From assembly GCA_027451885.1 (NCBI GenBank), contig DAIDHX010000058.1, positions 1 to 62,757 of the forward strand: 62,757 nt of DNA, given 5' to 3'. Positions 53,134 through 54,150 of the stretch are shown piece after piece. Made by a program: the position numbers and the translations under genes. The stretch comes from Planctomycetales bacterium. Lineage in GTDB: Bacteria; Planctomycetota; Planctomycetia; Isosphaerales; Isosphaeraceae. Numbering within the stretch: position 1 is the stretch's first letter; the number at the start of each line of letters is the position of its first letter. A model generated the notes under the pieces. That model did not search any database and was not told the DNA's origin. It saw nothing but the letters and a program-made list of their open reading frames with translations.

Positions 53134-53913
53134 TCAATCTACATATGATTGTGCATATACGGGAGGAATGTCCCCGGCCGAGGCGGCGTGCGCTTCGCCT
53201 GGCGGCAGCAGGTCGGCGTAGAAGCGGCCTTCGCGGCAGACGATCTCGCCGCGTTCGATCGGCACCGGCCGCTGAAATCCCGGGCCGTCGTGCACGAACG
53301 TGTGGAACTCGCCGTTCTCGCCGCAGGGATCGACGCCGGGCGGCAGGTCGGCGATGAGCGCGGGGTTGTAATCCCGGCCCGCGAAGCCGGGACCGATCTT
53401 CCCCTCGACGCAGGTGAGGATTGCCCTGTATCCCTGGTCGAACAGGAATTGTGGAAGAGTTTGCGTGTCGTGCTTCCAGATGGGGAAGACGGCGGACATG
53501 CCGCATGCCGCCAGGCTCTGTTCCCGCCAGGCGCGCAGGTCCTCGAGAAAAAGGTCGCCGTAGCCGAGGGTGAAGACGCCCCGGGCGCGGATCGCGGCCA
53601 TGGCGTCGGCCATGATTTGCTCGTAGACCGCGTTTGTGCAGGGGGCGTTCTTGCCGGCGGGCAGGTCGACCTTCAGGAGCGGCAAGCCCAGCGCCTGGGC
53701 CTGGGCGTCGAGCAAGACCTCGCGCACGCCGTGGTGGCTGATCCGGCGATATTCGTCAGCGATGGTGGTCAAGAGCGCGGCGACGTGGTACCGCGCGTCC
53801 GCGCAGAGGGTCTGGAGGGCAAAGGCGCTATCCTTGCCGCCGCTCCACGACATCACGACGGGAATGCGGCCGTCGCGCGGGGGCGCGATTCCTTCGAGAG
53901 CGGCAAGGTCCAT
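53134..53913 (-). CDS. DUF71/COG2102 PP-loop ATPase (Dph6-like; B12-salvage context)
   Basis: A 259-residue adenine-nucleotide alpha-hydrolase-like ligase. The PP-loop [12 protein letters not shown] is at residues about 22-33; [20 protein letters not shown] and [13 protein letters not shown] are typical of COG2102. In archaea and eukaryotes relatives amidate diphthine; bacteria lack diphthamide, and published genome-context work predicted a B12-salvage role for bacterial members. Here the gene is the first after a cobalamin riboswitch, which supports that prediction. AGGAG lies 7 bases before the ATG and could be sequestered by the leader. Confidence 0.85.
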
Positions 53914-54019
53914 GGCGGGCTCCTGGTCGACGGCTCGGCGGGACGAGACGCAACCAGCGCCTGCGCGGGGCGCAAGTAGGTTGCATCGGGTCCTGTACGT
54001 GAGGACGATGCAGCCTGCC

Positions 54020-54150
54020 TGGCCGGTCTTCTGGCTTCGGCCGCCTCAGCGCCTTCCCGCTTTCGCAGTGGCAAGTTGAGCCGAGGTTTTGGGGGCCGTT
54101 ACAGCAGCACGCCTGCCCCGGATTCGCACCGGGTTCCCATGCGCCAAGCA
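54020..54150 (-). promoter_or_regulatory. Cobalamin (B12) riboswitch
   Basis: Read on the minus strand, the leader of the DUF71 gene contains GGGAACCCGGTGCGAATCCG (about 54118-54137), then GCTGCTGTAAC, then the B12 box GCCACTGCGAAAGCGGGAAG followed by GC (54051-54072) and GCCAGAAGACC (about 54026-54036), in the order and spacing of cobalamin riboswitches. A further hairpin (GCATCG/CGATGC, 53983-54011) and a CTGGT able to pair with the ACCAG of the ribosome-binding region may be the expression platform. No T-run is seen, so control is probably translational. The 5' and 3' boundaries are approximate. Confidence 0.93.

Follow-up and report, generated by a model that had tools for sequence, protein, structure and literature searches.

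The window, by which we mean the whole 62,757-nucleotide stretch of Planctomycetales DNA analysed here, carries on its minus strand a gene of the DUF71 (COG2102) family preceded by a cobalamin riboswitch and followed by a gene for a BtuF-like protein (Table 1). The first-pass annotation had described a B12 box and an upstream conserved core directly before the DUF71 gene and had proposed an Infernal scan with the Rfam cobalamin model as a check; both elements proved to be real, as a search of the window with cmscan and the Rfam 15 models returned a full-length match to RF00174 (E 2e-15, model positions 1-189) well above the gathering cut-off, and no match to any other Rfam family. The interval it gave, 53134-54150, covers the gene and the leader, but the aptamer runs 13 nt further. 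The gap between the end of the aptamer and the ATG of DUF71 (53913) is 90 nt, thus bearing out the position claimed for the riboswitch.

Table 1. Features of the riboswitch-DUF71 operon in the window, with DUF6580 as found at related loci.
Feature	Position	Strand	Basis or remark
BtuF-like gene, PF01497 (aa 3-260) fused to DUF5522 (aa 310-353)	51981..53084	-	second gene; starts 50 nt after the DUF71 stop
DUF71 / COG2102 PP-loop ATPase, 259 aa, ENGEFH motif	53134..53913	-	PF01902, 81.4 vs 23.2 bits
Shine-Dalgarno AGGAG	53920..53924	-	sequence
Candidate Shine-Dalgarno sequestor hairpin CUGGUUG...CGACCAG	53923..53957	-	putative, from minimum-energy fold; overlaps the first AGGAG bases
Candidate antisequestor strand GAUGCAACC (= 3' arm of P13)	53979..53987	-	proposed pairing with 53947-53955
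P13-like hairpin, conserved loop CUCACG	53983..54011	-	candidate partner of L5
Cobalamin riboswitch aptamer RF00174	54004..54163	-	cmscan, 70.7 bits; gathering cut-off 31.5
P1 3' arm GCCAGGCAG	54015..54023	-	pairing with 54143-54151
B12 box AGCCAGAAGACC	54025..54036	-	sequence and cmscan alignment; invariant in 4 orthologous leaders
Conserved core GGGAACCCGGUG	start ~54137	-	sequence and cmscan alignment
P1 5' arm CUGCUUGGC	54143..54151	-	9/9 pairs with 54015-54023; compensatory changes among orthologs
Sigma-70-like gene upstream	54185..55183	-	probably outside the unit; conserved upstream only in G449
DUF6580 (PF20221)	L034 6745-7296; L298 2384-2956		family of unknown function, in B12 riboswitch operons

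Among members of RF00174 the riboswitch is an unexceptional one, of the large type. The same arrangement, with an RF00174 match on the same strand, is found before the closest DUF71 orthologs from the same family (G443, G449 and G472; 60-63% protein identity), the match lying 108-160 nt 5' of the matched part of the gene; the G472 locus was also found independently, as L031. Across the orthologous leaders the aptamer is about 78% identical, and the spacer between aptamer and start codon has diverged. Covariation among the four leaders, a small set of sequences, is seen in P1 (U-A to C-G), in a side arm (G-C to A-U and U-A to C-G) and in the P13-like hairpin (AU/AU to GC/GC and GU/AC), the stem of which reads GCAU/AUGC in the window and G472, GCGC/GCGC in G449 and GCGU/ACGC in G443. 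The loop of this hairpin may kiss L5, with at least its CAC pairing to the GUG of L5. A chance match of the B12 box is ruled out by the full-length covariance score together with the orthologs. The fold of the whole leader has an unremarkable z-score of -1.0. A covariance model of our own, R1, served for scanning fetched loci only, and its match in the window at 24858-24721 (13 bits, E 0.21) is at chance level. No report of DUF71 as a target of RF00174 was found in the open-licence PMC papers.

The segment from the aptamer to the start codon is predicted to adopt two mutually exclusive folds that differ little in energy (-43.8 and -41.8 kcal/mol). The former combines P13 with the CUGGUUG/CGACCAG hairpin, which lies next to and slightly over the AGGAG, whereas in the latter GAUGCAACC is paired with GGUUGCGUC and the AGGAG is free. 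Read from the sequences, the antisequestor pairing is kept in G472, where GAUGCAACC pairs with GGUUGUGUC, but neither it nor the switching fold is conserved in G443 or G449, and for this reason a sequestor/antisequestor switch is something that we infer. No intrinsic terminator was found in the leader, and a transcriptional terminator was therefore discarded as the expression platform; the operon is probably controlled at the level of translation, which B12 binding would repress. We likewise discarded read-through from the sigma-like gene, whose neighbourhood is common to the window and G449 only and absent in G443 and G472.

The DUF71 protein of the window carries a SWSGGKD PP-loop motif together with ENGEFH. 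Diphthamide is not made in bacteria, and yet bacterial DUF71 proteins are commonly annotated as 'diphthine--ammonia ligase', a function for which bacteria have no need. The window protein falls far below the cut-off of the Dph6 equivalog TIGR03679 (54.1 vs 197.3 bits), and in place of the catalytic glutamate of Dph6 (EGGE/DXE) it reads ENGEFH, with E188 replaced by H. This agrees with the ENGEF/YH motif of the DUF71-B12 subgroup, which de Crecy-Lagard et al. proposed in 2012 from clustering, co-distribution and motifs (PMC3541065); in their model DUF71 is a CbiZ-like hydrolase of pseudo-B12 which feeds CbiB, and riboswitches are nowhere mentioned in that paper (PMC3541065). The motif is of no use for telling B12-type from other bacterial DUF71, since it is present in nearly all bacterial members. 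The subgroup is also marked by adjacency to BtuCDF or cbiB, of which the window has an adjacent PF01497 gene, a BtuC-type permease and CbiB being undetected in the draft genome. In a quick, midpoint-rooted tree, built with reference loci instead of the sequence set of the 2012 authors, the clade of the window protein is separated by a 99% branch from DUF71 proteins adjacent to CobS, BtuCD or CobT (L158, L159, L160 and L181), and it also stands apart from the protein of Acinetobacter baumannii, the species from which cluster 3 of the 2012 paper takes its name (PMC3541065).

A DUF71 match is present in 70/392 planctomycete genomes. An RF00174 match lies on the same strand within 5 kb upstream of DUF71 in 16 of 68 planctomycete genomes with DUF71, and divergently within 300 bp in a further arrangement seen in 6/68, compared with a chance expectation for such proximity of below 0.1 as estimated from riboswitch density. 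Among DUF71 loci drawn from many phyla, the riboswitch is upstream on the same strand in 14/80 and divergent in 2/80. The immediate first-gene position of DUF71 is found in the relatives of the window and in an acidobacterial locus (L079). The order in Verrucomicrobiota is riboswitch, TonB receptor, DUF71, DUF6580 and BtuF-like, and in one family of Planctomycetia (f2) it is riboswitch, DUF1559 prepilin, small lipoprotein, DUF71, DUF6580 and BtuF-like; the small lipoprotein between the DUF1559 and DUF71 genes (L151 4761-5150) has no Pfam match. In a tree of 150 DUF71 proteins, those labelled with a riboswitch form clusters, but the label changes at least 9 times on well-supported branches, so that gain or loss of the link has occurred repeatedly. 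In family f49 and a groundwater relative (L097, L123, L129, L134, L166 and L167) a divergent riboswitch, about 100-330 bp from DUF71, controls the gene on its other side, a TonB receptor in L097; the DUF71 proteins of these six loci have the motif SSGKDSAW or STGKDSAW.

The genome of the window has a second cobalamin riboswitch (L111, on contig C122, 2185-1964, minus strand), which stands before a DUF1559 prepilin-like ORF (~1580-366, minus strand). Of the riboswitch loci of the class and family, 38/53 are followed within 1.5 kb by a prepilin motif on the same strand, where ~1.6% would be expected, and no link between DUF1559 and cobalamin was found in the open-licence PMC papers. In members of the family a DUF4465 protein with a PEP-CTERM tail is encoded behind a riboswitch and DUF1559 gene (L261 2765-3601 and L265 2583-3416; 173 and 155 bits); DUF4465 proteins bind B12 in Bacteroides (PMC13398666).

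The protein encoded by the second gene of the operon is modelled in a type III substrate-binding-protein fold (pLDDT 87) and matches 5YSC (rank 3) and 1N2Z. There is no signal peptide in any of the 15 rows compared, the PF01497 domain beginning at residue 3, and H28, C30, C92, C95 and C224 are invariant throughout; these residues could form a metal or corrinoid site in what would be cytosolic proteins. The DUF5522 domain with its cysteine cluster is found at the C terminus in the window and in L031. Relatives of the same genus have the order riboswitch-DUF71-DUF6580-BtuF-like, and the 50-nt gap between DUF71 and the BtuF-like gene in the window (53084-53134) lies where these genomes have DUF6580. 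The window and G449 have in common the sigma gene upstream and two glycosyltransferase genes downstream. Judging from gene order, the lineage of the window appears to have lost the operon copy of DUF6580, and a second, more divergent copy is present in its genome on contig C52.

A model of DUF6580 from L034 (pLDDT 84) has as its best structural matches two BtuM-cobalamin structures, 8C7P and 8OVV (Z 14.8, 167 residues, 3.0 A), with other S-components behind at Z 13.0 and below; a sequence search of the PDB returned nothing, and the match comes from structure comparison only. The DUF6580 of the relatives is thus predicted to have an S-component fold. BtuM is a solitary B12 transporter which works without an ECF module and has an invariant cysteine that ligates cobalt, and its transport has been proposed to rely on a neighbouring enzyme that traps the vitamin metabolically (PMC6072759). 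No invariant cysteine was found in the DUF6580 alignment.

The genome of the window (G000) is a draft of 316 contigs, 98% complete. It encodes methylmalonyl-CoA mutase (1178 bits) and a partial MetH, the C-terminal half of which lies at a contig end (917 bits, model positions 618-1233). Pfam searches, with control genomes positive, found neither CbiZ nor CobS in this genome and its close relatives, no CbiB in it and six relatives, and no FecCD/BtuC-type permease in it or in G443, G449 and G472; these absences are HMM non-detections in an inventory confined to these four families. In a draft assembly any one of them could reflect a gap, but the same absences recur in the relatives, and CobS is missing in 61/77 DUF71-bearing planctomycete genomes, including single-contig ones such as G024, G291 and G373. 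With both B12-dependent enzymes present and the assembly genes undetected, the organism uses B12, yet appears from its gene content unable to assemble or remodel it. Since CbiZ, CbiB and CobS are all undetected, any cobyric acid or cobinamide from a CbiZ-like reaction could not be rebuilt into B12.

The aptamer, its conservation and covariation, and the gene order are matters of observation; as the riboswitch is real, stands directly before DUF71 and is conserved, it constitutes regulatory evidence that the DUF71 of the window works with B12. The regulatory tie and a role in acquisition are well supported. We consider it likely that the operon is repressed by B12 and serves to acquire or retain intact cobalamin, and that its leader switches DUF71 and the BtuF-like protein in a user of B12 that appears unable to assemble or remodel it. 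Plentiful cobalamin would lead to repression of the operon through the leader, and low B12 would open translation, a response to the ligand being presumed. Entry of cobalamin through the inner membrane would not depend on BtuCD and could plausibly take place via the BtuM-like DUF6580; in the cytosol the signal-less BtuF-like protein would bind it, whereupon DUF71 would spend ATP on the corrinoid that has entered, so as either to trap it metabolically inside the cell or to repair it. By analogy with the amide ligase Dph6, repair could consist of re-amidating corrinoid side chains that have been hydrolysed, and it is the most specific idea that fits a genome with no detected assembly genes, since the relatives of DUF71 form amides by activating a carboxylate with ATP; as to the reaction itself, trapping or repair is a guess.

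A rival explanation, and to our mind a rather unlikely one, gives DUF71 that chemistry: it would be a corrinoid side-chain amide ligase, in which ATP activates the free carboxylates of damaged cobalamin and ammonia is joined to them, much as Dph6 acts on diphthine. The PP-loop fold common with the Dph6 structures 3RJZ and 3RK1, the conserved ATP-site motif SGGKD and a host that uses B12 with no assembly pathway all fit this, but the residue corresponding to the catalytic E188 is a histidine. It is improbable that the riboswitch serves mainly the downstream BtuF-like gene, with DUF71 a passenger of unrelated function; the many DUF71 relatives with no riboswitch nearby and the many gains or losses that the label requires on the tree would suit such a view, but in unrelated phyla DUF71 recurs as the first or second gene after the riboswitch, it is the first in four related genomes, and it keeps its position while its neighbours (TonB receptor, DUF1559, DUF6580) vary. 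Weaker still is the 2012 proposal of a CbiZ-like amidohydrolase that converts pseudo-B12 (or cobinamide) to adenosylcobyric acid for remodelling, for which ENGEFH in place of the Dph6 glutamate is the signature and the non-detection of CbiZ fits the anti-correlation, but whose product would be a dead end in this genome because CbiB and CobS are undetected (the latter also in several single-contig genomes), and from whose CobS/BtuCD-adjacent members the tree sets the window clade apart.

Acquisition of intact cobalamin, as preferred here, also bears on how far the prediction of B12 salvage, for which the first-pass annotation had claimed direct regulatory support, can be upheld: the conserved riboswitch sustains the link to B12, whereas the specific remodelling form of 2012 is opposed by the undetected CbiZ, CbiB and CobS and by the separate clade. 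As the genome appears to be without genes for building or remodelling B12, its DUF71 probably works on intact imported B12 and not in the role predicted in 2012, and the link points less to salvage by remodelling than to intact cobalamin being acquired or handled. More tentatively, and with rather less than even confidence, the riboswitch-marked clade as a whole may represent the cytosolic, ATP-using enzyme of a system that acquires B12 independently of BtuCD. Besides DUF71, this system would comprise the BtuM-like DUF6580 and a BtuF-like protein that is cytosolic and rich in cysteine; DUF71 would repair or trap intact cobalamin, the clade being widespread, distinct from the CobS/BtuCD-adjacent and Acinetobacter groups, and housed in bacteria unable to assemble cobalamin.

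The riboswitch ties bacterial DUF71 to B12 independently of gene clustering, whilst the missing CobS, and the missing CbiB and CbiZ where tested, speak against the main published idea for these members of the family. The substrate question is thereby narrowed to intact cobalamin, making testable a question that has been open since 2012, and an inner-membrane route of B12 uptake is suggested for bacteria without BtuCD. The newness is moderate, consisting of known parts in a new combination; the new elements are the gene under regulation, the missing pathway of assembly and a partner resembling BtuM.

Compared with known systems, the DUF71 protein resembles the diphthine-ammonia ligase Dph6 (PDB 3RJZ, 3RK1, 2D13) in fold family and ATP-site residues, but differs in the histidine at E188 and in its bacterial host. 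With the DUF71-B12 subgroup (PMC3541065) it has in common SGGKD and ENGEFH, a bacterial origin, a PF01497 neighbour and a genome without detected CbiZ, but that genome is also without detected BtuCD, CbiB and CobS, and the protein is riboswitch-linked and belongs to a clade separate from the CobS/BtuCD-adjacent members. The second protein shares its fold type with the periplasmic B12-binding BtuF, but has no signal peptide and no detected BtuC permease in its genome, and carries the invariant histidine and cysteines and the C-terminal DUF5522. DUF6580 is like BtuM (8C7P, 8OVV) in its predicted S-component fold, in having no neighbouring ECF module and in its B12 gene context, but is 17% identical over the aligned part, lacks the invariant cysteine and is missing from the operon of the window. 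The leader itself follows RF00174 in its full-length match, B12 box, conserved core, P1 and P13-like hairpin, and in its position directly before a B12-linked gene; it differs in that its peripheral arms are short and in that the gene which it controls is DUF71.
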